Source: Bacillus sp. 103mf
GTDB lineage: Bacteria; Bacillota; Bacilli; Bacillales; Bacillaceae_G
Direction: 5' to 3'
Assembly: GCF_900116295.1 (NCBI RefSeq)
Contig: NZ_FPAF01000016.1
Span: 1-64,000, forward strand
DNA: 64,000 bases
Below the pieces are notes generated by a model. The model searched no databases. It was not told the origin of the DNA and was given only the letters and a program-made list of their open reading frames with translations. Position 1 is the first letter of the stretch. The number at the start of each line of letters is the position of its first letter. Shown here in pieces: positions 12,108 through 62,061 of this stretch. The translations under genes and the position numbers were made by a program.

Positions 12108-12177
12108 TTTATTCCGCTATTCGTGGGCGAGCTTTCCATCAGTGAGAAAAGCGTCACTGATGGAAGTTTCACTTTAT
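12108..12177 (-). repeat. bcr1-type element, copy a (internally deleted, 70 bp)
   Basis: Flanked by TTTAT at both ends (12108-12112 and 12173-12177). Read on the minus strand it begins ATAAAGTGAAACTTCC, contains a TCAGTGA / TCACTGA hairpin, and ends CCACGAATAGCGG-AATAAA. The first ATAAA contains the TAA stop codon of ytoA. Confidence 0.85.
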
Positions 12178-12689
12178 TTCGTTTGTAAACTTTTATAATA
12201 TTGTCCTTTTTCGACGTATTGACGACGAATGCGAGCCATATCTTCACGGTCTTCATCTGTTAGTTCACGGATTACTTTGGCCGGACGACCGAATGCAAGT
12301 GTGTTTGGCGGGATTTTTTTTCCTTGCGGTACTAAACTCCCGGCACCGATAAATGCACCTTCACCAATTTCAGCTCCGTCTAAAATAATGGAACCCATAC
12401 CAATTAATGCATCTTTTTTCACTGTACAGCTATGTAAAATGACTTGATGTCCAATTGTGACATCATCTTCTAAAATAAGCGGGTACTTTGGACTTTGATG
12501 AAGTGTACATTGATCTTGTATATTGGTCCGGTCTCCGATAATCGTTGGAGAAACATCTCCGCGGATGACAGTGTTAAACCAAATGCTTGATTCTTCACCA
12601 ATTGTAACATCACCTGTAATTGTGACGTAGTCAGCGATAAATACGCTATTAGCAATTTTCGGATGTTTGTCTTTGTAAGGATAAATCAT
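12174..12689 (-). CDS. ytoA: Gamma-class carbonic anhydrase-like hexapeptide protein YtoA
   Basis: 171 aa left-handed beta-helix of hexapeptide repeats (IGEESSIW, IGDRTNIQ, IGHQVILHS, IGMGSIILDGAEI, IGAGSLV). Metal-ligand type histidines are present (TLHQS, GHQVILHS). Relatives include PaaY/YrdA and gamma carbonic anhydrases; the physiological reaction is unproven. It sits divergently next to ytpA-ytpB; ytoA also lies beside ytpAB in B. subtilis. Its stop codon is formed within the TTTAT end of a bcr1 element. Confidence 0.88.
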   Translation of the reverse strand: MIYPYKDKHPKIANSVFIADYVTITGDVTIGEESSIWFNTVIRGDVSPTIIGDRTNIQDQCTLHQSPKYPLILEDDVTIGHQVILHSCTVKKDALIGMGSIILDGAEIGEGAFIGAGSLVPQGKKIPPNTLAFGRPAKVIRELTDEDREDMARIRRQYVEKGQYYKSLQTK

Positions 12690-12763
12690 ATAAGTAACCT
12701 TCCTCTCCTAGAAACTAATATTAGTGTAGCAAATTATGAAATAGAGTGAAATGGAGGAATTTT

Positions 12764-13543
12764 ATGTGGAATTATGAAGCAGAAGAGGCAAAAGGTGTTA
12801 TAGTTATGGTACATGGTGCAATGGAGCATCATGGACGTTACGAGGCACTTGCAGACATGTGGCGCTATCTTGGCTTTCATGTTGTGATGGGGGATTTACC
12901 TGCTCACGGAACAACTTCAAGAAATAGAGGACATATTACGTCATTTGATGAATACATAGAAGAAGTAAAGACATGGATTAAAGAAGCGAAAAAATATTAC
13001 TTACCCCTTTTCCTATATGGACATAGTATGGGAGGATTAATAGTTATTCGCGTGCTGCAAGAAACGAAAATGGATGTGCAAGGAGTCATCTTGACTTCGC
13101 CGTGTTTAGGAGTGTTATCAATGCCGAAACTACCGCTTCGTACCATTGCGAAAGTGCTAAATGCTGTAGCCCCGAAACTGCAATTTAATTCGAATATTAC
13201 AGTCGAAATGGCGACGCGTAATCATGAAATTCGCGATGCAATGGAAAATGACTCATTGTTCTTGCGCAAAGTATCAGTTCGTTGGTATAGTGAGTTAATT
13301 AAAGCGGTAGAAATTGCACATGAAAAACGAAATGAATTTCCAGACGTACCGCTCTTGCTAATGCAGGCGTGTGAGGATAAACTTGTAGATAAAACACGTG
13401 TCTGTAGCTGGTTTGATAGTCTGAAAATTAGTGACAAAGCATATAAAGAATGGCCAAACTGTTATCATGAGCTATTTAATGAGTATGAGAAAGATGACAT
13501 TTTTGCATATGCAAAATCATTTGTGGAAACGCATTTAATTTAG
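12764..13543 (+). CDS. ytpA: Alpha/beta hydrolase, lysophospholipase-like YtpA
   Basis: 259 aa serine hydrolase of the monoacylglycerol-lipase group. Oxyanion motif VMVHGAMEHHGRY near residue 16 and nucleophile elbow GHSMGG near residue 86. The B. subtilis orthologue makes the antibiotic phospholipid bacilysocin. ATG 12764 chosen for its GGAGG site. First of the ytpAB pair, followed after about 77 bases by the terpene synthase gene. Confidence 0.88.
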   Translation: MWNYEAEEAKGVIVMVHGAMEHHGRYEALADMWRYLGFHVVMGDLPAHGTTSRNRGHITSFDEYIEEVKTWIKEAKKYYLPLFLYGHSMGGLIVIRVLQETKMDVQGVILTSPCLGVLSMPKLPLRTIAKVLNAVAPKLQFNSNITVEMATRNHEIRDAMENDSLFLRKVSVRWYSELIKAVEIAHEKRNEFPDVPLLLMQACEDKLVDKTRVCSWFDSLKISDKAYKEWPNCYHELFNEYEKDDIFAYAKSFVETHLI

Positions 13544-13620
13544 GAAACAAAAATAAATAATTACCAGTATATATTTTAAAAGTATTTGACCATATTCATT
13601 TAGAGGAGATGAAGAACGAA

Positions 13621-14682
13621 GTGAAAGTACCGAGTAACCCCATAACGCTCATGGCGAAAGTATACCGAGATGTGTTTCCGGTTGTACACCATGAGCTCGC
13701 AATGTGGAAAGAACGCGCCTACCATATTCCGAATGATGAACTTCATAATCAAGCGTTAGCGAGCATTGAGCATAAAACATTTCACTGTGAAGGCGGCAGC
13801 ATTTTAGCGCTGCTTGCCGATGAACATCGCGAGGAATGTATTCGATTCATTGTAGCGTACCAAACGATTAGTGATTATTTGGACAATTTATGCGACCGTA
13901 GTACATCACTTGATCCAAAGGATTTTGCAGCGCTCCATGAGTCAATGCTTGCGGCGCTAACACCAGGAAGCGAAGGAAGCAACTATTATCGTTACCGTGA
14001 TGATCAAGATGATGGTGGTTATTTAGATGAACTTGTAGCAACTTGTCAAGAAGTGCTTGCAAAGACGAAGCATTATAACAAGATTGCACCGATTCTTCAT
14101 GAACTTGCTTGTTATTACTGTGATTTGCAAATTCATAAACATGTAAAGCAAGAAGAGAGAGAAGATCGCTTGAAAACGTGGTTTGCAGCGCATCGTGAAA
14201 AAGTTCCGCCAATGAGCTGGTTTGAATTTTCAGCTTGTGCAGGTTCGACGCTAGGTATTTTCTGTCTTGTAGCATATGCATTCCATGATGAATTAACAGA
14301 CGATGATATTATGAAAATTAAACAAGGGTATTTTCCTTATGTACAAGGATTACATATTTTACTTGATTATTTCATTGACCAAGAAGAAGACCGTATTGGC
14401 GGAGATTTAAATTTTTGTAGTTACTATGAAAATAAAGAAGCAACTCTTGAGAGATTGAAACATTTTGTAATAGAAGCAGAAAGAAGCTTGGAACAACTGC
14501 CACATATGAAATTTCATCGCCTCATAAGCCGCGGGTTGCTTGGAATTTATTTATCAGACGAGAAAGTGTCACAGCAAAAAGAAATGCAACACATGGCACG
14601 GCGCATTGTGAAATACGGCGGCTTTACTTCGCGCTTTTTCTATTGGAATGGAAGGATGTATCGCAAGAAGATAGCACAGTGA
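13621..14682 (+). CDS. ytpB: Tetraprenyl-beta-curcumene synthase YtpB (DUF2600)
   Basis: About 353 aa large-terpene cyclase type protein that converts tetraprenyl (heptaprenyl) diphosphate to tetraprenyl-beta-curcumene, the first step of the C35 sesquarterpenes found in Bacillus spores. GTG 13621 is chosen (MKVPSNPITLMAKVYRDV) because AGAGGAGAT lies 12 bases upstream; ATG 13609 falls on the ribosome site itself. The acidic SDYLDNLCDR stretch is the likely diphosphate/Mg site. Confidence 0.88.
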   Translation: MKVPSNPITLMAKVYRDVFPVVHHELAMWKERAYHIPNDELHNQALASIEHKTFHCEGGSILALLADEHREECIRFIVAYQTISDYLDNLCDRSTSLDPKDFAALHESMLAALTPGSEGSNYYRYRDDQDDGGYLDELVATCQEVLAKTKHYNKIAPILHELACYYCDLQIHKHVKQEEREDRLKTWFAAHREKVPPMSWFEFSACAGSTLGIFCLVAYAFHDELTDDDIMKIKQGYFPYVQGLHILLDYFIDQEEDRIGGDLNFCSYYENKEATLERLKHFVIEAERSLEQLPHMKFHRLISRGLLGIYLSDEKVSQQKEMQHMARRIVKYGGFTSRFFYWNGRMYRKKIAQ

Positions 14683-14685
14683 TGA

Positions 14686-14717
14686 AAACGAGCTGTATTC
14701 TAAGCAGCTCGTTTTTT
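14686..14717 (+). terminator. Terminator of ytpAB
   Basis: AAAACGAGCTG / CAGCTCGTTTTTT stem with T-run, immediately after the ytpB stop. Confidence 0.8.
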
Positions 14718-14795
14718 ATATTTTCGTTGTAAGAAAAACCCTACACCAATAAGCAAAATGCAAATGGACTAAAATATGATACCGAAGATTGTCAT
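14700..14795 (-). pseudogene. Small membrane-protein gene broken by an in-frame TAG
   Basis: On the minus strand, ATG 14793-14795 opens MTIFGIIF, then TAG (14769-14771), then in the same frame SICILLIGVGFFLQRKYKKR and a final TAG at 14700-14702. The continuous text reads like a one-helix membrane peptide with a basic tail, which suggests a single-base nonsense change (possibly a TGG codon). Its end overlaps the ytpAB terminator. Homology not checked. Confidence 0.4.
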
Positions 14796-14850
14796 GAATT
14801 CACTTCTTTTTTTCTATTATATGGTAAAATGTAAATACGGAGGTGCTAAG

Positions 14851-15054
14851 ATGAAGAATTTCTTTAAAAAGTTATATGATAATATCGAAGTTTCGTTATT
14901 AGTGTGCCTTTCTATTTCATTTGTACTTGGCATTTATAATATGCTGATAAAAGCAGGTGGGCCAACAACTGTAGATTACATCATGCAGGCGGTATTAGCA
15001 GTTATTATTATTGTGGATATTTGGTTTTTAAAACATCAGGAAGAAACGAATTAA
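14851..15054 (+). CDS. Small two-helix membrane protein, 67 aa
   Basis: Start ATG 14851 with a CGGAGGTG site. Two hydrophobic segments (residues about 13-31 and 42-60) and a charged C-terminus (KHQEETN). Family not recognised. It ends in a terminator shared with the convergent racemase gene. Confidence 0.7.
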   Translation: MKNFFKKLYDNIEVSLLVCLSISFVLGIYNMLIKAGGPTTVDYIMQAVLAVIIIVDIWFLKHQEETN

Positions 15055-15089
15055 GGAGCGCTCATATTTTTGTATGAGGGCTCCTTTTG
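15052..15089. terminator. Bidirectional terminator
   Basis: AAGGAGC-CTCAT / ATGAG-GCTCCTTTT stem between convergent genes. Confidence 0.75.
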
Positions 15090-15090
15090 T

Positions 15091-15777
15091 TCAATTAGAT
15101 TTTTGATGAGATAAATACTTGTTTACAATAGCTTTGGCAAGACATGTAGAGGAATCTACAAAGTGAAGATTATTTTGCTCTGTCTCTAGTACGACATTCA
15201 AATCTGTACATGCTATGACAACAGCATCGACAGTTTCAGCTAATTCTGAGCATAGTGTATTCCACGATTGACTTGCTTCGTTTATTTGTCCTATTTTTAT
15301 TTTATATATAATTTGATTGATAGCAGTTTGCCAGCCATTTTTTTGAATATATTCTATACCACGTTTCAAAAATTCCTCTTGATATATACCAGATTGAACG
15401 GTAGCATCAGTTGCTAAAAGAGATACTTTTTGAATGTGAGCAGGAATTTCTTTTAGTGTTTCATCCACCATATTTAATACTGGGGTTGAGAGGGATTCCT
15501 GCATTTGATCAAAATAAAGATGTGCCGTATTACATGGCATAGCGATAAAATCGACACCCGTACTTTCGAGTTTTTGTGCGCCATTTATAATTGCTCTTTC
15601 CATATCTTCATGATTAATGGCCTTATTGATATAGAAAGGTGTTGGACATGAGTAAATCATCATATGAGGAAAGTCCATGTCATCTTTCGCGCCGTAAATT
15701 TCTTGGCATTGTTTTACTATGTTATCAACGAATGGTCCAGTAGATTTTGGCCCCATCCCTGCTAGTATTCCAATCAT
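15091..15777 (-). CDS. Aspartate/glutamate racemase-family protein, 228 aa
   Basis: Cofactor-independent amino-acid racemase fold: N-terminal IGILAGMGPKST, first catalytic Cys in AMPCNTAH (near residue 82) and second in VIACTDLN (near residue 190). Both catalytic cysteines are present, so an active racemase is likely; Asp, Glu or another amino acid could be the substrate. Spore or wall D-amino-acid supply is a possible role but is inference. Confidence 0.88.
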   Translation of the reverse strand: MIGILAGMGPKSTGPFVDNIVKQCQEIYGAKDDMDFPHMMIYSCPTPFYINKAINHEDMERAIINGAQKLESTGVDFIAMPCNTAHLYFDQMQESLSTPVLNMVDETLKEIPAHIQKVSLLATDATVQSGIYQEEFLKRGIEYIQKNGWQTAINQIIYKIKIGQINEASQSWNTLCSELAETVDAVVIACTDLNVVLETEQNNLHFVDSSTCLAKAIVNKYLSHQKSN

Positions 15778-15850
15778 AGCTGTTCATCCCCTTTGTTTTA
15801 ATTCGAATATAGAAATTCTTGTTTCGTATGAAAGAATCCTTCTTAGACAA

Positions 15851-15882
15851 TAAAAAATACGCGCAGTATGCACGTATTTTTG
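15851..15882. terminator. Hairpin with A/T flanks
   Basis: AAAAATACG / CGTATTTTT stem in the gap between mnmM and the racemase gene. No gene visible here to end; possibly part of the neighbouring repeat. Confidence 0.5.
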
Positions 15883-15904
15883 TAGGTGTATTCATGTTGT
15901 AATT

Positions 15905-16010
15905 TGTCGAAGGATCTTTATCCTGTGTCGAAGCGCCGATATATTTCAAAAGTCGCCGATATATGGTGAAAAACGGTCGATATATCGAGAAAAGCGCCGA
16001 TATATTGGCC
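15905..16010 (+). repeat. Dispersed repeat R2, copy 1: four phased CGATATAT sites
   Basis: About 105 bp. After a GTCGAA-GGATCTTTAT-GTGTCGAA lead it has four CGATATAT boxes, spaced 20, 21 and 20 bp (two helical turns). A second copy lies inverted at 37548-37657 with the same spacing. Confidence 0.8.
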
Positions 16011-16016
16011 AGGCGC

Positions 16017-16138
16017 TTTATCCCGCATTAACGGGCAGTAAAGTGGGTATGCACGGGGAAGAAAACTGCCCGTAAAAGCCCGCTTGGGCGGGCTTTCCAT
16101 CAGTGAGAAAAGCGTCACTTATGGAAGTTTCACTTTAT
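16017..16138 (-). repeat. bcr1-type element, copy b (122 bp)
   Basis: TTTAT at 16017-16021 and 16134-16138. Internal features of the family: GTGAAACTTCC, TCAGTGA hairpin, CTTTTACGGGCAGT. The TTTAT at its start (minus strand) contains the stop codon of mnmM. It abuts repeat R2. Confidence 0.88.
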
Positions 16139-16707
16139 CTTTTTTCAATCGCAATAATAAACGGCGGGTTATTTTGTTGGTTCATAAATTCGTACTTTAG
16201 TACGTGTGCTTCTTTTTGATCTAGCTGCCCGGCAAATTTGACAACGGCATCGCGTTCTATTTGTCCTTCAGGATGTCCGTGATAAATGACAAGAATGATA
16301 ATTCCTTCTGGTGCCATAACTTCTAATAACTGCTGCAAGGCAGAAAGAGTTGAGTTTGGTTTTGTGACGATGCTTTTATCACCGCCAGGAAGATAGCCTA
16401 AGTTAAAGATAGCTCCTGTTACTTTTCCTTTTGCGTCTTCTGGTAATACGGCTGTTAATGTATCGTGGCTATCATGAATAAGAACGGCACGCTCAGTCAG
16501 TCCTTTTTCTTGTAGCCGTGTGCTTGAATTGGTAATTGCTTCTTCTTGAATATCGAAGCCAAATACTTTTCCATTCTCGCCGACAAGCTCTGCTAAAAAG
16601 CACGTATCATGTCCGTTGCCTAGCGTTGCATCAACAGCGTAATCTCCTTCCTTTACCGCTCGCTCTAGCAGCGTGCGGGCAAAAGGTAAGATGCGTTCTA
16701 ACTTCAT
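16135..16707 (-). CDS. mnmM: tRNA U34 wobble methyltransferase MnmM (YtqB)
   Basis: 190 aa class I SAM methyltransferase. SAM-binding loop VDATLGNGHDT near residue 25; acidic FGFDIQEEA near residue 48. YtqB proteins have been shown to methylate nm5s2U34 to mnm5s2U34 in bacteria lacking MnmC. Its start overlaps the ytqA stop by four bases, so the two are coupled. Its stop lies inside the bcr1 TTTAT end. Confidence 0.88.
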   Translation of the reverse strand: MKLERILPFARTLLERAVKEGDYAVDATLGNGHDTCFLAELVGENGKVFGFDIQEEAITNSSTRLQEKGLTERAVLIHDSHDTLTAVLPEDAKGKVTGAIFNLGYLPGGDKSIVTKPNSTLSALQQLLEVMAPEGIIILVIYHGHPEGQIERDAVVKFAGQLDQKEAHVLKYEFMNQQNNPPFIIAIEKR

Positions 16708-22726: not shown

Positions 22727-22799
22727 TAAAGGTATATGAAAGGGAGTTTTGGTTAAAAAATTAAGAATTTTGACTATTTTAAAAAAAGGAGAAAATAGC

Positions 22800-25436
22800 A
22801 TGGTGAAATACTCAAAATTTTATAAACTGATGCTTGGTGTTGGGCTTGTTACTATATCATGTAATGGCATGCAAATTCAAGCAGAGGCAAAAGAGAAAAA
22901 TACGAAGAATGTATTACAAATGGAGCCGGTAGGATTAAAGAAATCCGTTGATGAGTTAGCGCACTCTTCGAACGTACAAGAAAGTCCATCTTTTACAAAA
23001 CGGTTAAAGTTAGCAGATTTATCGCAGCGTCCGCCGGCACCAAAAGAGGATGCTAAACAGCTGGCTGAAGAAAAAAAATATTCGATGGCTGAATTAAATC
23101 AATTAAGCAACAAACAATTAGCCGATCTTCTTGTTACGATTCAATGGTATCAAATTCCGGAATTATTTCAGTTTAATAGTGATAGCCTGAAGTTCTATCA
23201 AGATGATAGCCGGATGCAAGCGCTTATTGATAAACTAGCAGAACAAGGCCAAGCGTATACGCAGGACGATTCAAAAGGAATTGAGACATTAGTAGAAGTT
23301 ATACGTTCGGGATTTTATTTAGGTTTTTATCATCAAGAATTAAGTAAATTAAGTGAACGCAGCTATCATGATAAATGTTTACCAGCTTTAAAAACAATTG
23401 CGAAGAACCCGAATTTTAAACTTGGTACAACAGAACAAAATAAAGTAATTTCGTCTTATGGAATGTTGATTGGAGGTGCGTCAGCTGATGTTGAAGTTAT
23501 TCAATATGCAGGTGAAATCTTAAGACAATATAATGATAATCTTGCAACTTTTATTGAAGACTACACAAAAGGCAATGCTGTATATAATTTGATGAAAGAA
23601 ATTGATTATGATGTTCAGTCGTATATGTATACTACGGGCAAAGAACCAAAAGATACGATGTGGTATAGGAATATTGATAGCTTTATTAATGAAATAAGTC
23701 GTTTTGCACTAATTGGTACGGTAACAGACAAAAACGGATGGTTAATTAATAACGGAATTTACTATGCTAGCCGATTTGGTAAGCTTCATAGTACACAAGC
23801 AAAAGGACAGCAAGTTGCAACAGAAGCGATGTGGATTTATCCATATTTAGGACAGCAATATTTTGTTGCGGTAGAACAAATTGTTACAAATTACGGTGGA
23901 GTAGATGCGAACGGAAAAACAGTAAATTTAGATCAAATTCGAGAAGATGGTAAGAAGAAATATTTGCCTAAAACCTATACGTATGATGACGGGGCAATCG
24001 TCTTTAAAGCGGGAGATAAAGTGACTGAGGATAAAATTAAACGTTTATACTGGGCGGCAAAAGAAGTACGCGCTCAATTTTATCGTACAGTTGGTAGCGA
24101 TAAGGCGCTCGAGGGCGGACATGCTGATGATGTGTTAACAATGGTTATTTACAATAGTCCCGACGAATATCAATTTAACCGTCAATTGTATGGCTATGAA
24201 ACGAATAATGGTGGTATTTACATTGAAGGAATCGGAACGTTCTTCACATATGAACGTACACCGCAGCAAAGTGTTTTTAGTTTGGAGGAATTGTTCCGTC
24301 ATGAATTTACACACTATTTACAGGGAAGATATGAAGTTCCAGGGTTATGGGGACAAGGAGACATGTATCAAGATGAACGCTTGACTTGGTTTGAAGAAGG
24401 CAATGCGGAGTTCTTTGCAGGCTCAACGCGATTAGATAGCGTTGTACCACGAAAAAGTATGATTAACAGATTATCTAATGATCCAGCTAAACGATACACA
24501 GCGGAGCAAACATTATATGCAAAATACGGAACGTGGGATTTTTATAACTATTCGTTTGCATTGCAATCTTATATGTATAATAACCGCTCTGATATGTTCG
24601 ATAAAGTGCATGATTTAATTCGTGCAAATGATGTCCCAGGTTACGATGCGTACCGCTCTGCATTAAGTAAGGATAATAAATTAAATGAAGACTACCAATC
24701 TTATATGCAAATGCTGATTGATAATCGGGATAAGTATACAATTCCGCAAGTATCAGATGATTATTTAGCAGAGCATAAACCGAAAGCGTTTTCTGAAGTT
24801 ACAGCGGATATTACCAATGAAGCGAAGCTAACAAATGTGAAGGTAACAAAGAATAAATCACAATTCTTTAATACATTTACACTACAAGGAACGTATACAG
24901 GAAGTGCGTCAAAAGGAGAAACTGAGGACTGGAAGGCGATGAATCAAGCAACGAATGAGATGTTAAAACATCTTTCCGAAAAAGAGTGGAGCGGATATAA
25001 AACTTTAACTGCTTATTTTGTGAATTACCGTGTCAATGCGGCTGGACAATTTGAATATGATGTTGTGTTTAGCGGAGTGAATACTGAAGAAGATAATAGC
25101 GTAGAAAAAGAACCGAATGATTCATTTAATACAGCTAATCCACTATCTCTGAACACATTATTACGAGGTAGCCTAAATGATCAAGATCAAGTTGACCGGT
25201 TTGTTATTGATGTGAAGACAGCAAAAGATTTACAGATTACCGTTACGAATGAACAAAACCTTGGAATGAATTGGGTATTATATTCTGAATCAGACCTGAA
25301 TAACTACGCCGCTTATGCAACAAAACGCGACGGAAATAAATTACTTGGAAATTATTATGCGAACCCAGGAAAATATTACTTGAGTGTATATAAATATAGC
25401 GGTGGAACGGGGAATTATACAGTAGAGGTAAAATAG
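22800..25436 (+). CDS. Secreted collagenase (M9B), paralogue without PKD domains
   Basis: 878 aa; ATG 22800 after AAAGGAG. Signal peptide residues 1 to about 30 (ending near QIQAEA). M9N and peptidase domains closely parallel the collagenase at 5040-8168; zinc site H501EFTH505 and E533. No PKD domain: the catalytic region is followed directly by a PPC-type domain (about residues 770-877, starting EKEPNDSFNTANPLSLN). No PlcR box is visible within about 300 bp upstream, unlike colA. It is about 15 kb from its paralogue in the same orientation: an old duplication with divergent regulation. Confidence 0.93.
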   Translation: MVKYSKFYKLMLGVGLVTISCNGMQIQAEAKEKNTKNVLQMEPVGLKKSVDELAHSSNVQESPSFTKRLKLADLSQRPPAPKEDAKQLAEEKKYSMAELNQLSNKQLADLLVTIQWYQIPELFQFNSDSLKFYQDDSRMQALIDKLAEQGQAYTQDDSKGIETLVEVIRSGFYLGFYHQELSKLSERSYHDKCLPALKTIAKNPNFKLGTTEQNKVISSYGMLIGGASADVEVIQYAGEILRQYNDNLATFIEDYTKGNAVYNLMKEIDYDVQSYMYTTGKEPKDTMWYRNIDSFINEISRFALIGTVTDKNGWLINNGIYYASRFGKLHSTQAKGQQVATEAMWIYPYLGQQYFVAVEQIVTNYGGVDANGKTVNLDQIREDGKKKYLPKTYTYDDGAIVFKAGDKVTEDKIKRLYWAAKEVRAQFYRTVGSDKALEGGHADDVLTMVIYNSPDEYQFNRQLYGYETNNGGIYIEGIGTFFTYERTPQQSVFSLEELFRHEFTHYLQGRYEVPGLWGQGDMYQDERLTWFEEGNAEFFAGSTRLDSVVPRKSMINRLSNDPAKRYTAEQTLYAKYGTWDFYNYSFALQSYMYNNRSDMFDKVHDLIRANDVPGYDAYRSALSKDNKLNEDYQSYMQMLIDNRDKYTIPQVSDDYLAEHKPKAFSEVTADITNEAKLTNVKVTKNKSQFFNTFTLQGTYTGSASKGETEDWKAMNQATNEMLKHLSEKEWSGYKTLTAYFVNYRVNAAGQFEYDVVFSGVNTEEDNSVEKEPNDSFNTANPLSLNTLLRGSLNDQDQVDRFVIDVKTAKDLQITVTNEQNLGMNWVLYSESDLNNYAAYATKRDGNKLLGNYYANPGKYYLSVYKYSGGTGNYTVEVK

Positions 25437-26798: not shown

Positions 26799-27329
26799 TT
26801 AAAATATCCAATCAAAGACAGTATAAATACCAAGTAGAGCAAACAAAATGATTAATATAAGCGCCGAGATGCATCCAAAAGGAATGAGCTTATCTTGCCA
26901 CGTTTCTTCATATTCTTCGATCATGCTTTCTTTTACTTTTTCTTGCAGAGAAGATGCGATAGGTTCAGAACATAACTTTTGAATTATTTCATTATCCCCT
27001 TTAAATTTTAAGGCTCTAGCTATCTGATTAGCGTTGTTCCCCATAGATTTCTCGAATAGTGAGCACGCCTCAATCATTTCAGGTGTTTTCTGCTCTTCTA
27101 AGTACCAATATCGACCAGCCATTGCGGGGTGTTGTAATTTGTAATAAACATCTCCTAGTTTCTTACGAATATCTAATGCATTAGGATAAGTGGAAATTAA
27201 GCCATGTAGTCGATCTCTTGCTTTTCCTAAATCATTATTTGTAATATCGTTTTCAATCTTTTTTAACGTTTTTTTAGGTATGGTGTTTATGGTATAATCC
27301 TCCTTTTTTATCCCACTATTCGTGGGCAT
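26799..27329 (-). CDS. DUF6584-like TPR-type membrane protein; 5' end altered by bcr1
   Basis: A helical repeat region (ARDRLHGLISTYPNALDIRK, GDVYYKLQHPAMAGRYWYLEE) is followed by a C-terminal membrane helix (ILIILFALLGIYTVF). The likely ancestral start is odd: AAGGAGG is followed 8 bases later by ATA AAC ACC, where an ATG would be expected. The frame is open upstream into bcr1 copy c, where ATG 27327-27329 has GTGGGAG just before it. So bcr1 may now supply the start. Alternatively ATA is a rare start. DUF name from memory. Confidence 0.6.
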   Translation of the reverse strand: MPTNSGIKKEDYTINTIPKKTLKKIENDITNNDLGKARDRLHGLISTYPNALDIRKKLGDVYYKLQHPAMAGRYWYLEEQKTPEMIEACSLFEKSMGNNANQIARALKFKGDNEIIQKLCSEPIASSLQEKVKESMIEEYEETWQDKLIPFGCISALILIILFALLGIYTVFDWIF

Positions 27330-27464
27330 TAATACTCCCACCTCAAAATTTAGCGAAAGCAAAGAAGTTAGGTGGGAGATAAACTGCCCGTAAAAGCCCG
27401 ATTGGTGAGGGCTGATAATCAGTGGGGATGAAGAACCCCTCCACTGATTAAAGTTTCACTTTAT
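27307..27464 (-). repeat. bcr1-type element, copy c (158 bp, full length)
   Basis: TTTAT at 27307-27311 and 27460-27464. Minus strand: ATAAAGTGAAACTTTAATCAG, GGGG/CCCC hairpin, CTTTTACGGGCAGT, ACCTAACTTCTTTGCTTTCG, GAGGTGGGAGTATTAATGCC, CCACGAATAGTGGG-ATAAA. It separates two same-strand genes and touches the stop of one and the start region of the other. Confidence 0.9.
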
Positions 27465-27889
27465 TTCATAAATTGTTTAGGATATTCTCTCGTATAGTTT
27501 TTATCGTCACGCCAATCATATGTTTCTTGTTTCGGAATATGTAAAGTTTGATTTCCGATTTTAACTGTAGTTTCATCAATCCATTCAACGGTTGGATCGT
27601 TATCAGGATAATTCCAGTATATCGTTTTAGCAGAATTCGTTTTAAGATGGACCAATTCACCTCTAACGGCGTTTGCGCTTAATGATCCTCCATCATGAAC
27701 ATAAGTTTTCAGTTTATAATCTCCATTTGGAGATTCAATTGTTCGAATTAATTTTCCTGTTGGAACACCTTGCAAACTAAAAAACTTCCAATATACAAAG
27801 CCAGCTCCAATAATCAACATAGAAAGTAATACAATTCCTACTTTTCTCTTTGTTTTCTTGATTTCTCTTTGTGCTTTTTTAGTATCCAT
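27461..27889 (-). CDS. DUF5412-family membrane-anchored protein, 142 aa
   Basis: N-terminal basic segment and one helix (VGIVLLSMLIIGAGFVYWKF), then an extracytoplasmic domain beginning SPNGDYKLKTYVHDGG and with YWNYPDNDPTVEW, typical of DUF5412 proteins in Bacillus. Function unknown. Its TAA stop lies in the TTTAT end of bcr1 copy c. Confidence 0.7.
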   Translation of the reverse strand: MDTKKAQREIKKTKRKVGIVLLSMLIIGAGFVYWKFFSLQGVPTGKLIRTIESPNGDYKLKTYVHDGGSLSANAVRGELVHLKTNSAKTIYWNYPDNDPTVEWIDETTVKIGNQTLHIPKQETYDWRDDKNYTREYPKQFMK

Positions 27890-32294: not shown

Positions 32295-32394
32295 TTTATC
32301 CCGCTATTCGCGGGATAATTGCTGGCATAAGTCCGATTGGTTTAACTAACTACCAGTGGGAGATGAAAAAACACTGATGGGAGTTTCATTTTAT
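32295..32394 (-). repeat. bcr1-type element, copy d (100 bp)
   Basis: TTTAT at 32295-32299 and 32390-32394; CCCGCTATTCGCGGG at one end and GTTTCA at the other. Shortened internally. It lies 41 bp downstream of the broken membrane gene at 32435, in that gene's orientation. Confidence 0.85.
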
Positions 32395-32403: not shown

Positions 32404-32436
32404 TTAAAGCTCCTTCAATTGTAGAGAAGGAGCCTT
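32404..32436 (-). terminator. Terminator of the broken membrane gene
   Basis: GGCTCCTTC / GAAGGAGCTTT on the minus strand. Confidence 0.7.
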
Positions 32437-32679
32437 AACTATGAAACTTTTTCTTATTTATTCTTAATACAATTGCTATGATTAACAGTATAACTCCTAA
32501 TAAACATGTGAGTATTGGATAAAGTAGAGGAAAGAATATGCTTGGATATCCTTTCATTATGTCTGAATAATGTCCCATTAACATTAAGCCTGTATAAGAG
32601 AAGTTAATAAGTTCTACACCAAGGTTATGGTTACTTCTTTCGTCATAAGTGAAGCGTTCTTCGAGAGAAGTGCCATCTT
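32435..32679 (-). pseudogene. 3' remnant of a membrane-protein gene
   Basis: Open minus-strand frame of about 81 codons without a start. It begins after a stop at the edge of repeat R1 copy F, with GTSLEERFTYDERSNHN, and ends with two hydrophobic stretches and INKKKFHS. It still has its terminator. The 5' part has probably been replaced by R1 copy F. Family not recognised. Confidence 0.55.
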
Positions 32680-34191: not shown

Positions 34192-34244
34192 TTTGACGGA
34201 ACATGTAACTTGTTTTAGAATATATTTTAAATAACTCATATGTA

Positions 34245-34478
34245 ATAACAGTGAGAAGGAGTAGTAGTAATAGAAGCTGGTTTAGAGAGTTGACGGTCGG
34301 TGCAAGTCAATCCACGTTTCGTTATGAACTCGCCTTTGAGTTGCAGTTGTGAAACAAAGTAGCAATTGCCGTTCATCCACGTTACGGATCTAAGCGAATG
34401 TAATTATTACATTAATTTAGGGTGGTACCGCGGGAATCTATAACCTCTCGTCCCTTTTCTGGGATGAGGGGTTTTTTG
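34245..34478 (+). promoter_or_regulatory. Leucine T-box riboswitch of leuS
   Basis: Contains the T-box AGGGTGGTACCGCG at 34419-34432, whose TGGT can pair with the ACCA end of uncharged tRNA-Leu. The stem I specifier is probably CTC (Leu) at 34329-34331, in GAACTCGCC. The leader ends in a terminator CCTCTCGTCCC / GGGATGAGGGGTTTTTT (34444-34477). Uncharged tRNA-Leu would favour the antiterminator and allow leuS transcription. Confidence 0.93.
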
Positions 34479-34524
34479 TATTTTTGGCGGTGAAAATATA
34501 TAGAATTTGAATGGAGGGTATTTT

Positions 34525-36933
34525 ATGAGCTTCAATCATCAAGAAATTGAAAAGAAGTGGCAAGCGTATTGGGAAGAAAATAAAACATTCCGTACGCCAG
34601 ATGAAACAGAAAAACCGAAATTTTACGCACTAGATATGTTCCCATATCCATCAGGTGCAGGGCTGCACGTAGGACATCCAGAAGGATATACAGCAACGGA
34701 CATTTTATCTCGTATGAAACGTATGCAAGGCCACAACGTTCTTCATCCAATGGGATGGGATGCATTCGGTCTTCCAGCTGAGCAATATGCGCTTGATACT
34801 GGAAACAGCCCAGCTGAATTTACAGAGAAAAACATTAACACGTTCCGAAACCAAATTAAAGCATTAGGCTTCTCTTATGATTGGGATCGTGAAGTAAATA
34901 CGACAGATCCAAACTACTATAAATGGACACAGTGGATCTTCTTAAAACTATATGAAAAAGGTTTAGCCTACGTTGATGAAGTACCAGTAAACTGGTGCCC
35001 AGCACTTGGTACTGTACTTGCGAACGAAGAAGTAATCGATGGCGTAAGTGAGCGCGGCGGACATCCTGTTGAACGTCGTCCAATGCGACAATGGATGCTG
35101 AAAATTACAGCTTATGCAGATCGCCTGCTAGAAGATTTAGATGAACTTGATTGGCCAGAGAGCTTAAAAGATATGCAGCGCAACTGGATTGGCCGTTCTG
35201 AAGGTGCTGAAGTTCACTTCGCTATCAACGGTACAGATGAGAAATTTACTGTATTTACAACGCGCCCAGATACATTATTCGGTGCAACATACTGTGTGCT
35301 TGCTCCAGAACACGCACTTGTTGCAGAAATTACAACAGCAGAGCAAAAAGAAGCAGTAGAAGCTTACGTTGATTCTGTAAAAGCGAAAAGTGATTTAGAG
35401 CGTACAGAGCTTGCAAAAGAAAAAACAGGTGTATTCACAGGTGCTTATGCGATTAGTCCAGTAAACGGTGAGAAATTACCAATCTGGATCGCTGACTATG
35501 TACTTGCAAGCTACGGAACAGGTGCAGTAATGGCGGTTCCGGCACATGATGAGCGCGATTATGAGTTTGCGAAAACATTTGAACTGCAGATGAAAGAAGT
35601 TGTAGAAGGCGGAGACATTACGAAAGAAGCACATACAGGTGATGGTGCACATATTAACTCTGCATTCTTAGATGGATTAAATAAAGAAGAAGCGATTGCG
35701 AAAATGATTGAATGGCTTGAAGTAACAAGCGCAGGAAATCAAAAAGTAACGTACCGTCTTCGTGATTGGTTATTTAGCCGTCAACGTTACTGGGGTGAGC
35801 CAATTCCGATTATTCACTGGGAAGACGGCACAATGTCAGCTGTGAAAGATGAAGAATTACCATTAGTTCTTCCAAAAACGGAGAACATTCGTCCATCTGG
35901 TACAGGCGAATCTCCACTTGCAAACATTGAAGAGTGGGTAAATGTTGTTGATCCAGTGACTGGTAAGAAAGGTCGCCGGGAGACAAATACAATGCCGCAA
36001 TGGGCAGGTAGCTGCTGGTACTACCTACGCTACATCGATCCAAACAACAGTGAAGCGCTTGTAGATCCTGAAAAAGTAAAACAATGGCTTCCAGTTGATA
36101 TTTATATCGGCGGTGCGGAGCATGCGGTACTTCACTTACTATATGCACGCTTCTGGCATAAAGTATTATATGATATCGGTGTTGTGCCAACGAAAGAGCC
36201 ATTCCAACAACTATTTAACCAAGGTATGATTTTAGGAGAAAACAACGAGAAAATGAGTAAATCAAAAGGTAACGTTGTAAATCCTGATGATATCGTAGCA
36301 AGCCATGGTGCAGATACACTTCGTCTATATGAAATGTTTATGGGACCATTAGATGCTTCCATTGCTTGGTCTGAAAATGGCCTTGATGGAGCTCGTCGTT
36401 TCTTAGACCGCGTATGGCGTCTATTTGTTCAAGATAATGGTGAACTAAGCGAGAAAATTACAGATGCACCAAACAAAAATCTTGAAAAAGTATATCACCA
36501 AACAGTGAAGAAAGTAACAGAAGACTATGAAGAGCTTCGCTTTAATACTGCCATTTCTCAAATGATGGTATTTATTAACGATGCATATAAAGCAGAAACA
36601 CTTCCGAAAGAATATGTAGAAGGTTTCGTGAAAATGTTAGCGCCAGTTGCACCGCACGTTGCGGAAGAACTTTGGAACAAGCTTGGATATAACGAAACAG
36701 TTTCATATGTAAGCTGGCCAACATTTGATGAGTCTAAACTTGTAGAAGATGAAGTAGAAATCGTTGTTCAAGTCATGGGTAAAGTACGTGCAAAGCTAAC
36801 AATGAAAAAAGACGCATCAAAAGAAGAAATGGAACAACTTGCAATTGAAGCAATTAAAGAACAAATTGAAGGGAAAACAGTTCGAAAAGTAATTGTTGTT
36901 CCTGGAAAACTTGTAAATATCGTAGCAAACTAA
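34525..36933 (+). CDS. leuS: Leucyl-tRNA synthetase
   Basis: 802 aa class I aminoacyl-tRNA synthetase charging tRNA-Leu. HIGH-type motif HVGH near residue 50, KMSKS near residue 576, and the CP1 editing domain in between ([23 protein letters not shown]). Start ATG 34525 with GGAGGG upstream. Controlled by the upstream T-box. Terminator AAAAAGGGCACCTA / AGGTGCCTTTTTT at 36936-36968. Confidence 0.97.
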
Positions 36934-46286: not shown

Positions 46287-46301
46287 ATGGAGAGTGATGA
46301 G

Positions 46302-46631
46302 ATGGAGAAAGAGAATATATATCGTTGCTCAGTAGAAGTAACATTAGATGTAATCGGCGGAAAATGGAAAGGCGTTATTCTATTTCATTTAATAAATGGA
46401 GAAATTCGCTTTAATCAATTTTTACGATTGATGCCTGGTATCACACAGCGAATGTTAACGAGACAATTACGAGAGCTAGAGGCTGATGGTGTGATTCACC
46501 GTGAAGTATATAAGGAAGTACCTCCGAAGGTTGAATACTCGTTAACGGAATTCGGAAAGTCGTTAATTCCGATTATCATAATGATGCGTGATTGGGGAAA
46601 TCAGTATCGAACACAAATAGAGCAGGGATAA
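46302..46631 (+). CDS. HxlR-family winged-helix regulator (HypR/YodB-like), 109 aa
   Basis: ATG 46302 after GGAGAGTGATG. HxlR domain throughout: DVIGGKWKGVILFHL, ITQRMLTRQLRELEADG and YSLTEFGKSL. A Cys near the N-terminus (YRCSVE) matches the redox Cys of HypR/YodB regulators that sense disulfide or quinone stress. Its TAA stop is inside the ATAAA end of bcr1 copy e. Confidence 0.88.
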   Translation: MEKENIYRCSVEVTLDVIGGKWKGVILFHLINGEIRFNQFLRLMPGITQRMLTRQLRELEADGVIHREVYKEVPPKVEYSLTEFGKSLIPIIIMMRDWGNQYRTQIEQG

Positions 46632-46785
46632 AGTGAAACTTTAATCAGTGGGGGTTTTCTTCATCCCCCACTGATTATTAGCCCTCCCAATCGGGCTTTT
46701 ACGGGCAGTTTATCTTCCATCTAACTTCTTTGCTTTTGCTGAACTTTGAGGTGGGAGTATTAATGCCCACGAATAGCGGGATAAA
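46628..46785 (+). repeat. bcr1-type element, copy e (158 bp, full length)
   Basis: ATAAA at 46628-46632 and 46781-46785. GTGAAACTTTAATCAGTGGG, GGGCTTTTACGGGCAGTTT, GAGGTGGGAGTATTAATGCC, CCACGAATAGCGGG. Closely similar to copy c and the same length. A terminator (AAAAAAGTGTGCA / TGCACACTTTTTT) follows at 46784-46821. Confidence 0.92.
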
Positions 46786-57191: not shown

Positions 57192-57228
57192 GAAATTCCT
57201 CCTTGAAGTAATTGCTATTATGATTAGC

Positions 57229-57271
57229 ATTGTACAACAAAAATTGTAATGAAGATGTGATATTTTGCAAA
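57229..57271 (-). promoter_or_regulatory. Probable Fnr-dependent promoter of moaC
   Basis: TGTGATATTTTGCAAA at 57256-57271 (two mismatches in the second half-site), with TACAAT on the minus strand at 57234-57229. The centre to -10-end distance is 34.5 bp, exactly as at moaB and narG. The conserved spacing raises confidence in a weak match. Confidence 0.6.
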
Positions 57272-57286
57272 TACGAGGTGAAAATG

Positions 57287-58579: not shown

Positions 58580-59061
58580 GGTATCAAAATAGTGGGAAGA
58601 CAACTTTGACAGAGAAGCTGATTAAAGCGCTAACGAATGAAGGTGTGAAAGTAGGCGCGATTAAGCATCATGGGCACGGAGGGTATCCAGAATTGCCGCT
58701 GCAAAAAGATAGCGAACGTCATCGCCAAGCTGGAGCGATTGTCAGCGCAGTGGAAGGGGACGGATTATTGTCTTTATCCGCTCAGCGCGACTGGTCTTTA
58801 GAAAAAATTATTCATTTGTATACATGTTTTGAAGCGGAAGTCATAATCGTTGAAGGATATAAAAAAGAACGATACCCGAAAGTTGTTTTACTTCGGTCAG
58901 AGGAAGATGCTTCTTTATTAGAAAGTGTAGAAAATGTGATCGCCGTTATTACATGGAATGAGGCTCTAAAAACAGGGCAAGAGAACTATCAAGTTTTTTA
59001 TATAACAGAAGATGAGAAGTATATAAATTGGTTCGTACAAAGAATGAGGGATGCAAAATGA
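58546..59061 (+). CDS. mobB: Molybdopterin-guanine dinucleotide biosynthesis protein MobB
   Basis: 171 aa P-loop GTPase. GTG 58546 is chosen, 9 bases after GGAAG; GTG 58540 overlaps the site. P-loop GYQNSGKTT near residue 10, with IKHHGHGGYP near residue 42. Helps MobA to make or hand over MGD. Stop overlaps the moaE start (ATGA). Confidence 0.92.
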   Translation: MERAVPVLQIVGYQNSGKTTLTEKLIKALTNEGVKVGAIKHHGHGGYPELPLQKDSERHRQAGAIVSAVEGDGLLSLSAQRDWSLEKIIHLYTCFEAEVIIVEGYKKERYPKVVLLRSEEDASLLESVENVIAVITWNEALKTGQENYQVFYITEDEKYINWFVQRMRDAK

Positions 59062-59528
59062 CAAAAACGTATTTTGAAGTAGTGGATACGCCGATTTCCA
59101 TTGAAGAAGTAGCGCAGAAAGTCATTCGCCGTGAATGCGGCGCTGTGACGACATTCATTGGTACAGTGCGCGAATTTACGAAAGGGCGCCGTACGCTTTA
59201 CCTAGAGTATGCTGCATACCGTTCGATGGCTGAAAAAATGCTTGCCAAAATTGGTGAAGAAACGAAAGAAAAATGGCCAGGAACATATGTGGCCATTTCA
59301 CATCGCATCGGCACATTGCAAATTTCTGATATTGCGGTTGTTGTTGCCGTATCGACGCCGCACCGAAAAGCGGCGTATGAAGCGAATGAATATATTATGG
59401 AACGCATTAAACAAATTGTTCCCATTTGGAAGAAAGAGTTTTGGGAAGACGGTGAGAAATGGATTGGTGATCAATTAGAGCAAACACCGTATCCAAACGG
59501 AGAACCAGGAAAGGAGAAAGTGGAATGA
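59058..59528 (+). CDS. moaE: Molybdopterin synthase catalytic subunit MoaE
   Basis: 156 aa; start coupled to the mobB stop. Typical MoaE text: CGAVTTFIGTVREFTKGR near residue 30, SHRIGTLQISDIAVVVAV near residue 80, and PIWKKEFWEDGEKWIG with the catalytic Lys near residue 118. Works with MoaD to put two sulfurs into precursor Z. Confidence 0.95.
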   Translation: MTKTYFEVVDTPISIEEVAQKVIRRECGAVTTFIGTVREFTKGRRTLYLEYAAYRSMAEKMLAKIGEETKEKWPGTYVAISHRIGTLQISDIAVVVAVSTPHRKAAYEANEYIMERIKQIVPIWKKEFWEDGEKWIGDQLEQTPYPNGEPGKEKVE

Positions 59529-59758
59529 TTACAGTATTATTATTTTCCCATCTACAAGAAGAAGCTGGAACACACCAATTACAAATTGATGTACAAAACC
59601 TTACGGTAGCAGAGCTGAAGGAGCTTGTAATGAAGGACTACAATGTCTCCCTTTCTCAGCACATAATGGTAGCAATTAATGAAGAATATGCGAATGAAGA
59701 TGATATGATCCAAGATGGTGATGTTGTCGCATTGATTCCACCCGTAAGCGGCGGGTGA
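59525..59758 (+). CDS. moaD: Molybdopterin synthase sulfur carrier subunit MoaD
   Basis: 77 aa ubiquitin-like protein, ending in the required double glycine (PPVSGG). Start overlaps the moaE stop. Thiocarboxylated by MoeB action and then joined to MoaE. A 14-bp hairpin follows before narK. Confidence 0.95.
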   Translation: MITVLLFSHLQEEAGTHQLQIDVQNLTVAELKELVMKDYNVSLSQHIMVAINEEYANEDDMIQDGDVVALIPPVSGG

Positions 59759-59762
59759 TTCT

Positions 59763-59800
59763 CTCCTGCCTAATCATGAAAGAACGTGATTAGGCAGGAG
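59763..59800 (+). other. Strong hairpin between moaD and narK, no T-run
   Basis: CTCCTGCCTAATCA / TGATTAGGCAGGAG, a perfect 14-bp stem with a 10-base loop, and no poly-T tail. It could be an mRNA-processing or stability element setting the moaD:narK ratio. Confidence 0.65.
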
Positions 59801-59849
59801 GGAAGCAATAGAAAATGTGAAATATTGAACAAAATAGGGGGAGAGACTA

Positions 59850-61019
59850 ATGAAAAATCCGAATTTTCAGTTAGGATTACAAACTTCAAATCTTATACTT
59901 GGCTTTATGGTATGGGTGATTTTATCTGCTTTAATGCCATTTATTAAAGCAGACATTGCGTTAACAGCAGGACAGATTTCTCTTGTCACAGCAGTACCAG
60001 TCATTTTAGGCTCTATTCTTCGCATTCCAATTGGTTACTGGACCAATCGTTACGGAGCAAGAAAATTATTCTTTATTAGTTTTATTATTCTATTATTCCC
60101 TGTCTTTTATATTAGTATGGCAACATCGATGCTAGATTTAATTATTGGCGGTTTATTTGCTGGGGTTGGCGGAGCTGTATTCTCTGTAGGGGTAACATCT
60201 CTTCTGAAATACTATCCGAAAGAAAAGCATGGCTTTGTAAACGGAATATACGGAATAGGAAATATAGGGACAGCAGTTACATCCTTTCTCGCACCAGTAC
60301 TTGCAACTTCATTTGGCTGGAGAACAACGGTACAAATGTACTTAATCTTACTCGCTGCATTTGCATTAGCAAACTTCCTGTTAGGAGATCGTAACGAGAA
60401 AAAGGTAAATACATCATTAACGGAACAAATTAAAGGTGTTTATAAAAATGAAAAGCTTTGGTTCTTATGTATTTTCTATTTCTTAACTTTCGGTTCGTTC
60501 GTCGCATTTACAGTTTATTTACCGAACTTCCTCGTATCTCACTTCGGCTTAGCGAAAGTAGATGCGGGATTACGTACAGCTGGTTTTATTGCATTAGCAA
60601 CAATTATGCGTCCAATTGGCGGCTGGCTCGGCGACAAATTTAATCCATTTAAAATTTTAATCTTTGTCTTTACCGGTTTAACATTAGCAGGAATTATTTT
60701 ATCATTCATGCCAAAGATGAATGTATACACATTCGGTTGTTTATTAGTTGCTTTTTGCGCTGGTACTGGAAATGGAACAATCTTTAAACTTGTACCAATG
60801 TATTTCTCAAAGCAAGCTGGTATTGTAAATGGTCTTGTATCGGCACTTGGTGGACTTGGTGGCTTCTTCCCACCATTAATTTTAACGCTATTATTCCAAC
60901 TGACAGGCCATTATGCAATTGGGTTTATGGCGTTATCAGAAGTAGCGCTTGCTTGTTTAGTTATTACTGTTTGGATGTATAGTCAAGAGAAGTTACTGGC
61001 GATGTTACAGCATAGATAG
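59850..61019 (+). CDS. narK: Nitrate/nitrite MFS transporter NarK
   Basis: 389 aa, 12 predicted helices. The two nitrate-signature glycine-rich segments are present: GVGGAVFSVGVTSLLK-YYP near residue 110 and FCAGTGNGTIFKLVPMYF near residue 305. Brings in nitrate and/or releases nitrite for NarGHI. AGGGGGAG site. Last gene of the moeA-to-narK run. Terminator at 61019-61066. Confidence 0.93.
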   Translation: MKNPNFQLGLQTSNLILGFMVWVILSALMPFIKADIALTAGQISLVTAVPVILGSILRIPIGYWTNRYGARKLFFISFIILLFPVFYISMATSMLDLIIGGLFAGVGGAVFSVGVTSLLKYYPKEKHGFVNGIYGIGNIGTAVTSFLAPVLATSFGWRTTVQMYLILLAAFALANFLLGDRNEKKVNTSLTEQIKGVYKNEKLWFLCIFYFLTFGSFVAFTVYLPNFLVSHFGLAKVDAGLRTAGFIALATIMRPIGGWLGDKFNPFKILIFVFTGLTLAGIILSFMPKMNVYTFGCLLVAFCAGTGNGTIFKLVPMYFSKQAGIVNGLVSALGGLGGFFPPLILTLLFQLTGHYAIGFMALSEVALACLVITVWMYSQEKLLAMLQHR

Positions 61020-61066
61020 GAAAAGAAGGTGTCTCCGAAGTGATGATTTTGGGGATATCTTCTTTT
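61019..61066 (+). terminator. narK terminator
   Basis: AAAAGAAG-TGTCTCC / GGGGATATCTTCTTTTTT imperfect stem with T-run. Confidence 0.7.
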
Positions 61067-61162
61067 TTCGTATTTTAGGGAATTTGAAAACAAAAATGCA
61101 ATTTGCTTACTTTTGGCTATCTGATCCTGTTAAAAATCTTTCAAATCTCGGTGTTAATTTAA

Positions 61163-61365
61163 CTATATGTCCATTTAAATTTTCCCGCATATAAGTCTCT
61201 GCTATGCAAAATACAACATACAACATGACCGCTACTTGCTTTCTCCCTTTGTTTTAAACCTCGGATGTGGCAGGAAAAGGCCCTGACCGTTTCTATGCAT
61301 GGCCAGATGCTCTCGACCTCCAAAAAAAGAAAGAGGTTTTATGTCGATTTTTAACTTGTATATAT
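61163..61365 (+). repeat. Repeat R1, copy I
   Basis: Full-length copy: ATATGTCCATTTAAATTTTC left end, GCATATAAGTCTCTGCTATGC (plus an 8-bp duplication ACAACATA), GTGGCAGG, CTGACC-N12-GGCCAG, ATGCTCTCGACC, GAGGTTTTATGTCGA and TTTTTAACTTGTATATATG right end. No gene between narK and ymaF. Confidence 0.88.
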
Positions 61366-61443
61366 GAAGAGGGGGAATTATTTCAATAGTATAAGCATAC
61401 TAGTTTATAGAGTTTATCTTTATGCATAAGGGGAATGAAGAGA

Positions 61444-61791
61444 ATGGATAGAGTGAACAGGGTAGGAAAAAATGATTTCGTTTCTGGTTTTGTGCCACAT
61501 CATAACCATGGGTCAGTGGATTATACATCTGTTGAGGGAGGACATGTACATCAGTGCCTAGATGTAACATCTCCGCCCATTAAGACACAAGAGGGAGGGC
61601 ATATACATTATACAGAAGGATATGTATTGTTCGAAGATGGACATACACACTATTACAAGGCGTATTCAGGACCAGCAATTCCAGTTGGAAACGGAATGCA
61701 TGTTCATTATTATGACTTTTATACGACGGAAAATAATGGGCATAAACACCATGTTAAGGGAGTAGATCAGCCTGCCCCGGGTGATAAATAA
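61444..61791 (+). CDS. ymaF: YmaF-family His-rich repeat protein, 115 aa
   Basis: ATG 61444 chosen, 9 bases after AAGGGGA; ATG 61435 touches the site. About five repeats of the type GGHxH/DGHTHYY (GHVHQCLDVTS, GHIHYTEGY, GHTHYYKAYSG, MHVHYYDFYT, GHKHHVKG), the hallmark of the YmaF family. Metal binding is likely; function unknown. Its TAA stop is in the ATAAA end of bcr1 copy f. Confidence 0.85.
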   Translation: MDRVNRVGKNDFVSGFVPHHNHGSVDYTSVEGGHVHQCLDVTSPPIKTQEGGHIHYTEGYVLFEDGHTHYYKAYSGPAIPVGNGMHVHYYDFYTTENNGHKHHVKGVDQPAPGDK

Positions 61792-61914
61792 AGTGAAACT
61801 TCCATTCGGAGATGCCTTTTCTCCGAATGGTTAGTTGAACCAATCGGGTTCTTACAAGCAGTTCCTCTTCTCGCAATTCCCATCTTTGCTTACTGCTTGT
61901 TAGAGCGGGATAAA
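61788..61914 (+). repeat. bcr1-type element, copy f (127 bp)
   Basis: ATAAA at 61788-61792 and 61910-61914. Starts in the ymaF stop codon: ATAAAGTGAAACTTCC with hairpin ATTCGGAGA / TCTCCGAAT. The far end is altered (no CCACGAATAG). Its last ATAAA is the first of copy g. Confidence 0.88.
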
Positions 61915-62061
61915 GTGAAACTTCCATCAGTGGCGGGGTATTCCTTACTGATGATTAGTTGAACCAATCGGGCGCATGCCAGCAGTTATCCCCCACTTAT
62001 CTTCTTTGCTTTTCTCTGAATCTTGAGGTGGGGTTTTACTGCCCACGAGTAGAGGGATAAA
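61910..62061 (+). repeat. bcr1-type element, copy g, tandem to copy f (152 bp)
   Basis: ATAAA at 61910-61914 and 62057-62061. GTGAAACTTCCATCAGTGGC, TCTTTGCTTTTCTCTG, GAGGTGGGGTTTTACTGCCC, CCACGAGTAGAGGG. The two copies share one ATAAA, as expected if the second inserted at the end of the first. Confidence 0.9.

Follow-up and report, generated by a model that had tools for sequence, protein, structure and literature searches.

bcr1 is described as an intergenic, hairpin-forming repeat of about 150 bp with TTTAT at its ends. The title of Okstad 2004 is said to call it specific to the cereus group. Here we analyze seven elements of this kind in a 64,000-nucleotide stretch of Bacillus sp. 103mf (contig NZ_FPAF01000016.1, positions 1 to 64,000), which as a whole we call the window. 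We find that the orientation of the element follows the replication fork, and that its strict polarity at stop codons is a by-product of an asymmetric target, ATAAA/TTTAT. The name bcr1 was taken from an initial annotation of this DNA, and the likeness rests on descriptions in titles and citing papers rather than on a consensus sequence; the bcr1 papers themselves (Okstad 2004, Klevan 2007, Kristoffersen 2011) are known here from their titles and from passages of citing papers. In the passages concerned, the TTTAT motif of bcr1 is named (PMC6542083), its length is given as 147 and 167 bp (PMC2267715), and the bcr repeats are described as specific to the cereus group (PMC8725734). The present copies differ from that description in that they also occur outside the cereus group and in that the majority run against the leading strand in five other genomes.

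Further systems invite comparison, each as described in passages of the papers cited. PATEs, or non-autonomous IS200/IS605 elements (PMC3119063), have in common with our elements that they are too short for a transposase, lack terminal inverted repeats and carry hairpins near their ends, where our elements have a strong one close to the ATAAAGTGAAAC end and a weaker one at the other; ends-only short forms, a 4–5-nt target and the absence of a transposase of their own are also common to both. Unlike PATEs, the bcr1-type element is bounded by TTTAT on either side, and the analysis found no parent IS200/IS605 element whose ends match. IS200/IS605 elements such as IS608 (PMC5371812, PMC6006769) share with it an orientation tied to replication, the transposed strand being on the lagging-strand template, whereas the bcr1-type element has no tnpA gene. 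REP/REPIN sequences with their RAYT transposases (PMC6006769) are likewise high-copy, non-coding intergenic hairpins, but the bcr1-type element is longer and has a fixed 5-nt target at both ends. In one genome (G033, L176:700-2430), a RAYT-type Y1 transposase open reading frame (ORF; 287 aa) does lie beside a bcr1-type copy, amid repeats with GACAGGAAC or its complement. These surrounding repeats are distinct from the bcr1-type element and look like the REP family of that transposase.

The seven window elements are the following.

12108..12177, minus strand: bcr1-type element 1, 70 bp; its first ATAAA contains the TAA (12176-12174) of a gamma carbonic anhydrase relative, 12174-12689(-)
16017..16138, minus strand: bcr1-type element 2, 122 bp; ATAAA contains the TAA (16137-16135) of mnmM, 16135-16707(-)
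27307..27464, minus strand: bcr1-type element 3, 158 bp; ATAAA contains the TAA (27463-27461) of a DUF5412 gene, 27461-27889(-)
32295..32394, minus strand: bcr1-type element 4, 100 bp; first bases ATAAAATGAAAC; away from stop codons, 41 bp past the stop of a 49-aa ORF, 32435-32584(-)
46628..46785, plus strand: bcr1-type element 5, 158 bp; ATAAA contains the TAA (46629-46631) of an HxlR-type regulator gene, 46287-46631(+)
61788..61914, plus strand: bcr1-type element 6, 127 bp; ATAAA contains the TAA (61789-61791) of a YmaF-family gene, 61435-61791(+)
61910..62061, plus strand: bcr1-type element 7, 152 bp; in tandem with element 6

The initial annotation thus described the locus correctly in its layout: seven TTTAT-flanked elements, five of which share the TAA of the preceding gene within a terminal ATAAA, one 41 bp after a gene in the same orientation that it called broken (here a 49-aa ORF that may be the end of such a gene), and one in tandem on its neighbor. 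The five stop-sharing ORFs match the gamma carbonic anhydrase (a gene that the annotation called ytoA), MnmM, DUF5412, HxlR and YmaF protein families. Matches to family profiles suggest that these genes still encode untruncated proteins: positions 2-183 of 183 are spanned in MnmM and 1-170 of 172 in the carbonic anhydrase.

All seven copies carry ATAAA at both ends. They range from 70 to 158 bp, with a variable middle between common ends, which are the terminal ATAAA and ATAAAGTGAAAC, the latter being exact with its first base at 12177(-), 16138(-), 27464(-), 46628(+), 61788(+) and 61910(+), while the copy at 32394(-) starts ATAAAATGAAAC instead. The ATAAAGTGAAAC end and the other end, TTTATCCCGC on the reverse strand, are not inverted repeats, in contrast to those of a classical miniature inverted-repeat transposable element. 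A strong hairpin lies 12 nt from the ATAAAGTGAAAC end and a weaker one at the other end; the predicted structure has changes on both sides at 19 of 36 pairs, and an Rfam search at gathering scores gave no match inside the elements. Elements 6 and 7 are joined through one common ATAAA (61910-61914), and tandem neighbors, in this pair as in relatives, overlap by exactly 5 terminal bases. Arrays of five copies (G339:C1 1671665-1672431) and of eight (G410:C1 1819962-1821070) are built with the same 5-base overlap. Short forms retain the ends only. The relative G081 also holds composites of about 345 nt (e.g., G081:C1 2592003-2592348 and 3373586-3373930) and a class of about 221 nt, in which additional hairpin modules separate the usual ends.

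Genome-wide counts were obtained from relatives that carry the same element (G081, G172, G339, G308 and G366) and not from cereus-group genomes. G081 is a single 3.65-Mb contig with 110 matches, whereas the figures for G339 rest on 86 matches listed of 137. Each genome search scored at most 150 first-pass candidates, so copies may be missed, and model E-values are rough. Rows include tandem copies and fragments; merging those less than 1 kb apart gave 133 loci in G172, 73 in G339 and 104 in G081. For G308 and G366, rows overlapping a stronger row on the opposite strand were removed, and contigs C2 and C4 of G308 are uncounted. With replication arcs set by GC skew, the element runs against the leading strand at 121/133 loci in G172, 66/73 in G339 (among the matches listed) and 73/104 in G081, and in 35 of 45 cases in G308 (p = 2.5e-4). 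The 103 G081 copies with a recognizable start (7 of the 110 rows lack one and were excluded from this count) divide into 73 that run against the leading strand and 30 that run with it. A free split of the chromosome into two arcs is followed by 130/141 matches in G172 and 79/86 in G339 (among the matches listed); in both genomes GC skew and majority gene strand are reversed from one arc to the other, and in G081 both switch near 1.82 Mb as well as at the ends of the contig. For the majority of copies in each of the five genomes, it is the lagging-strand template that carries TTTAT-CCCGC...GTTTCAC-TTTAT. The bias is significant in four of the five chromosomes, an orientation to the fork of the kind known from IS200/IS605 elements or PATEs.

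The supply of sites does not explain this bias, since empty non-coding ATAAA sites at the same loci are near strand balance (396:416 in G081, 224:275 in G172 and 194:196 in G339, the last among the matches listed). Selection on a polar chromosomal signal, rather than the mode of insertion, could in principle segregate the strands as sharply as in G172 and G339 (more than 90%, in the latter among the matches listed). Yet the share of copies against the leading strand varies between genomes from 63% to 92%, and copy number is uneven in relatives, for example ten copies in G081 against two in G412 over about 0.35 Mb. We regard such selection as quite unlikely to be the source of the bias.

The asymmetry of the target accounts for the polarity at stops. 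Relative to ATAAA, the element lies in a single orientation, and a TAA within ATAAA is read only on the ATAAA strand, always towards the ATAAAGTGAAAC end; every stop-coincident copy therefore faces its gene with ATAAAGTGAAAC, and the polarity of the five window copies adds no information. The initial annotation had made strict polarity towards the preceding gene a rule. In the relatives, the upstream gene has the direction of the element for 53/102 copies in G081, 26/73 in G172 and 17/61 in G339 (the last among the matches listed). These counts do not support the rule and amount to an outcome that the annotation itself had named as counting against it. Away from stops, copies against the leading strand have upstream genes in the same and opposite direction in a ratio of 46:131, equal to the 201:558 at empty sites (p = 0.92; G339 among the matches listed). 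We conclude that, with strand and stops discounted, copies show no general polarity relative to the gene before them. These contexts come from gene calls by our own simple script, not from annotation, as do the stop counts below; they cover 74 of 141 rows in G172 and 62 of 86 in G339, from 40 of 100 and 40 of 61 merged regions picked at random, respectively, plus the search loci.

What does stand of the gene-end claim is an excess at stop codons over empty ATAAA sites. Of 6 independent insertions in the window, 5 coincide with a stop, compared with 7/144 empty non-coding ATAAA sites (Fisher p = 7.7e-6; counted by copy, 5/7, p = 2.5e-5). In G081 the figures are 22/103 copies and 42/812 empty sites (p = 2.6e-7), and a more stringent draw, limited to sites of the same locus and strand and using 106 of the G081 rows, expects 11.0 for the 22 observed (P = 5e-5). 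Two of these copies, 517370 and 518581, follow neighboring similar genes and are not independent. The same draw is not significant in G172 (6/74 at stops, 4.65 expected, P = 0.28) or in G339 (2/62 among the matches listed, 0.49 expected, P = 0.07). The over-use of stops is thus real in the window and G081, and unclear in G172 and G339.

The annotation had offered two accounts of the polarity at stops. Insertion might itself be targeted to gene 3′ ends beyond the ATAAA target, for instance through transcription or translation termination. The pooled excess, about five-fold in each strand class (21/200 copies vs 16/814 empty sites, and 9/39 vs 50/887 in the other class; three genomes, G339 among the matches listed), fits such targeting, but copies elsewhere show no gene polarity, the excess is weak in G172 and G339 (in the latter among the matches listed), and G081 sites 0-15 nt past a stop are not enriched (4/30 occupied). 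We therefore hold 3′-end targeting to be decidedly improbable. Alternatively, copies at stops could be retained as a 3′ untranslated region (UTR), mRNA stabilizer or terminator of the preceding gene. The high occupancy of stop-coincident sites in G081 (22/64, where other left-gene distance classes with at least 20 sites reach at most about 18%), the strong first hairpin and the RNA-seq data, which in the passages of PMC3446304 place bcr1-bcr3 often in UTRs, would agree with this. According to the same passages, however, only bcr3, not bcr1, correlated with decay rate; the sites just past stops are, as noted above, not enriched; and the stop excess lacks significance in G172 and G339 (the latter among the matches listed).

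A terminator role meets a further difficulty. No terminator-like site in the direction of the gene was found in the five of seven window copies scanned (those at 27307 and 32295 lay outside the scan), and the sole site inside them, 12133-12166(+), reads against the gene at 12174-12689(-). Gene-direction sites do occur past the far ends, at 12101-12079(-) behind element 1 and at 62081-62096(+) behind the tandem pair; from their placement, the element looks like an insertion between the stop and the gene's own terminator. A 3′-UTR or terminator role thus has little sequence support and is unlikely as the reason for the excess, although a secondary benefit at some genes may occur. Of the annotation's suggestion, then, the excess at gene ends survives in the window and G081, while the scanned copies lend no support to its reading as a terminator. 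Occupancy in G081 also reaches 9/22 where the far end overlaps, or lies at most 15 nt from, the stop of an oncoming gene. Together with the 22/64 and 4/30 above, this mix points to tolerance of gene 3′ ends rather than to a directional role.

Empty sites in a relative bear on the order of events. A 400-kb stretch of the related genome G412 is collinear with about 2.97-3.31 Mb of G081 and holds two distinct copies (a third row lies on the opposite strand, overlapping one of the two) versus ten in G081; seven G081 sites could be mapped onto G412 through both flanks. At the stop-coincident copy 2970740, the gene is also present in G412, where it ends in an identical in-frame TAA inside ATAAA and no element follows; the stop therefore predates the insertion. 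At site 3078324, five bases, ATAAG, stand between the flank matches in G412. Site 3074343, behind a gene that we take to be clpP by recognition of its protein, is element-free in G412 as well, but its exact target is ambiguous because it lies within a run of ATAAATAAATAAA and the gene end is slightly different. In G190 and G041 (L356 and L358), a different insert of about 160-190 bp directly follows the clpP-like gene, at the same ATAAA run as the G081 copy.

What we observe, then, is one orientation relative to the target, an orientation that follows the fork, a pre-existing stop in one empty site, and no gene polarity otherwise. One target orientation relative to a fixed 4-5-nt target, as in IS200/IS605 elements or PATEs, the lack of inverted repeats, the hairpin, the ends-only forms and the fork-tied orientation together make the element resemble PATE-like elements. 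The account we favor, and consider probable as a whole, is that the seven copies belong to a short, non-coding, hairpin-rich mobile family of several Bacillales genera. Its members would insert into the lagging-strand template while this is single-stranded, immediately 3′ of TTTAT and much as IS200/IS605 elements do, with an enzyme that may be provided in trans or may since have been lost. Polarity at stops would then arise because only a gene read on the ATAAA strand has this TAA in frame, and the stop excess would reflect survival, as an insertion there keeps the native stop, leaves the coding region unbroken and usually spares the promoter.

Several observations weigh against this account. 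In G366, 40/64 copies run against the leading strand, which is not significant (p = 0.06), nor is the bias significant in the G081 class of about 221 nt (14:9). The window has positive GC skew over its whole length, and 4 of its copies run against and 3 with the leading strand; these are too few to judge, yet given this 4:3 split cereus-group copies may differ in orientation. The far junction at 2970740 aligns uncleanly (16 unaligned bases in G412, 10 in G081). The two hairpins give conflicting counts of G-T vs A-C, which would tell folding as DNA from folding as RNA. Finally, no mobilizing enzyme was identified: a Y1 transposase (PF01797), sought in 35 genomes (16 carriers and 19 non-carriers of the element), had no match in 5 of the 16 carriers and 6 of the 19 non-carriers.

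Y1 transposases are thus no commoner in carriers than in non-carriers, and in 42 stretches, nearly all around Y1 matches, no bcr1-type end pair flanks the gene. We rejected a Y1 transposase as mobilizer, there being no linkage in the 35 genomes or around the Y1 loci examined. An orphan-end search for long autonomous copies in the stretches examined found none; it was a weak search, its 3′ motif being too narrow for several genomes. By comparison with known systems, the element appears to work like a lagging-strand, single-strand element, and since the enzyme was not found we leave it outside IS200/IS605 membership. A tentative further step, possible though well short of probable, is that bcr1 is a branch of an old Bacillales family that inserts into single-stranded DNA 3′ of TTTAT on the lagging-strand template and is mobilized by no recognized Y1 enzyme, using instead a trans-acting enzyme or a host factor of replication or recombination.

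Carriers of the element also lie outside the cereus group, and the restriction described for bcr repeats does not apply to it. A search with element 5 (46628-46785) gave matches in 102 of 397 genomes belonging to the order of Priestia endophytica, two candidates being scored in each, and many of these matches extend over all 158 bases at 75-83% identity. A covariance model built from 29 copies, applied to named genomes at E 1e-6, gave 132 matches in Cytobacillus citreus, 138 in Paenibacillus sp. FJAT-29882 (as labeled), 48 in Lysinibacillus xylanilyticus, 9 in Cytobacillus massiliigabonensis and 3 in Bacillus pakistanensis. These are 5 carriers among 13 named non-cereus genomes; at the same threshold the other 8 (five Paenibacillus, a Rossellomorea, Priestia endophytica and a Clostridium) had none. 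Loci related to the window numbered 16 in the searched contigs, none labeled cereus group, and the genus around G396, whose DNA matches the window at 70-71%, was taken as lying outside that group. A literature search showed no report of bcr1 outside the cereus group or of a fork bias, the main bcr1 papers being outside its reach.

Further copies lie on plasmids, in records of Pseudalkalibacillus hwajinpoensis, Cytobacillus oceanisediminis and Peribacillus asahii. Phage records gave no match to the element. A single match in viral contigs was taken as chance and discarded; a later search found none. A 92-nt bcr1-type match (60.9 bits, L352:3001-3092) stands in an unexpected host, the gammaproteobacterial record of Klebsiella grimontii plasmid pNY3A (CP079755.1), between CPBP protease and restriction endonuclease genes. 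This copy could reflect transfer or a mislabeled record.

Elsewhere in the window, a T-box leader (34242-34458; Rfam RF00230, 150.5 bits) directly precedes an 808-aa ORF at 34507-36933(+), and an 895-aa ORF at 22749-25436 carries Peptidase_M9 (collagenase) domains by Pfam.

These results replace a claim about gene ends with a testable mechanism, in which it is apparently the replication fork that determines how a classic cereus-group repeat is oriented. They also carry a caution, in that strict polarity at stop codons can arise simply from an asymmetric target that contains TAA. If the mechanism is true, bcr1 would join the single-strand mobile DNA, its restriction to the cereus group would fall, and the missing mobilizer would become a definite target.

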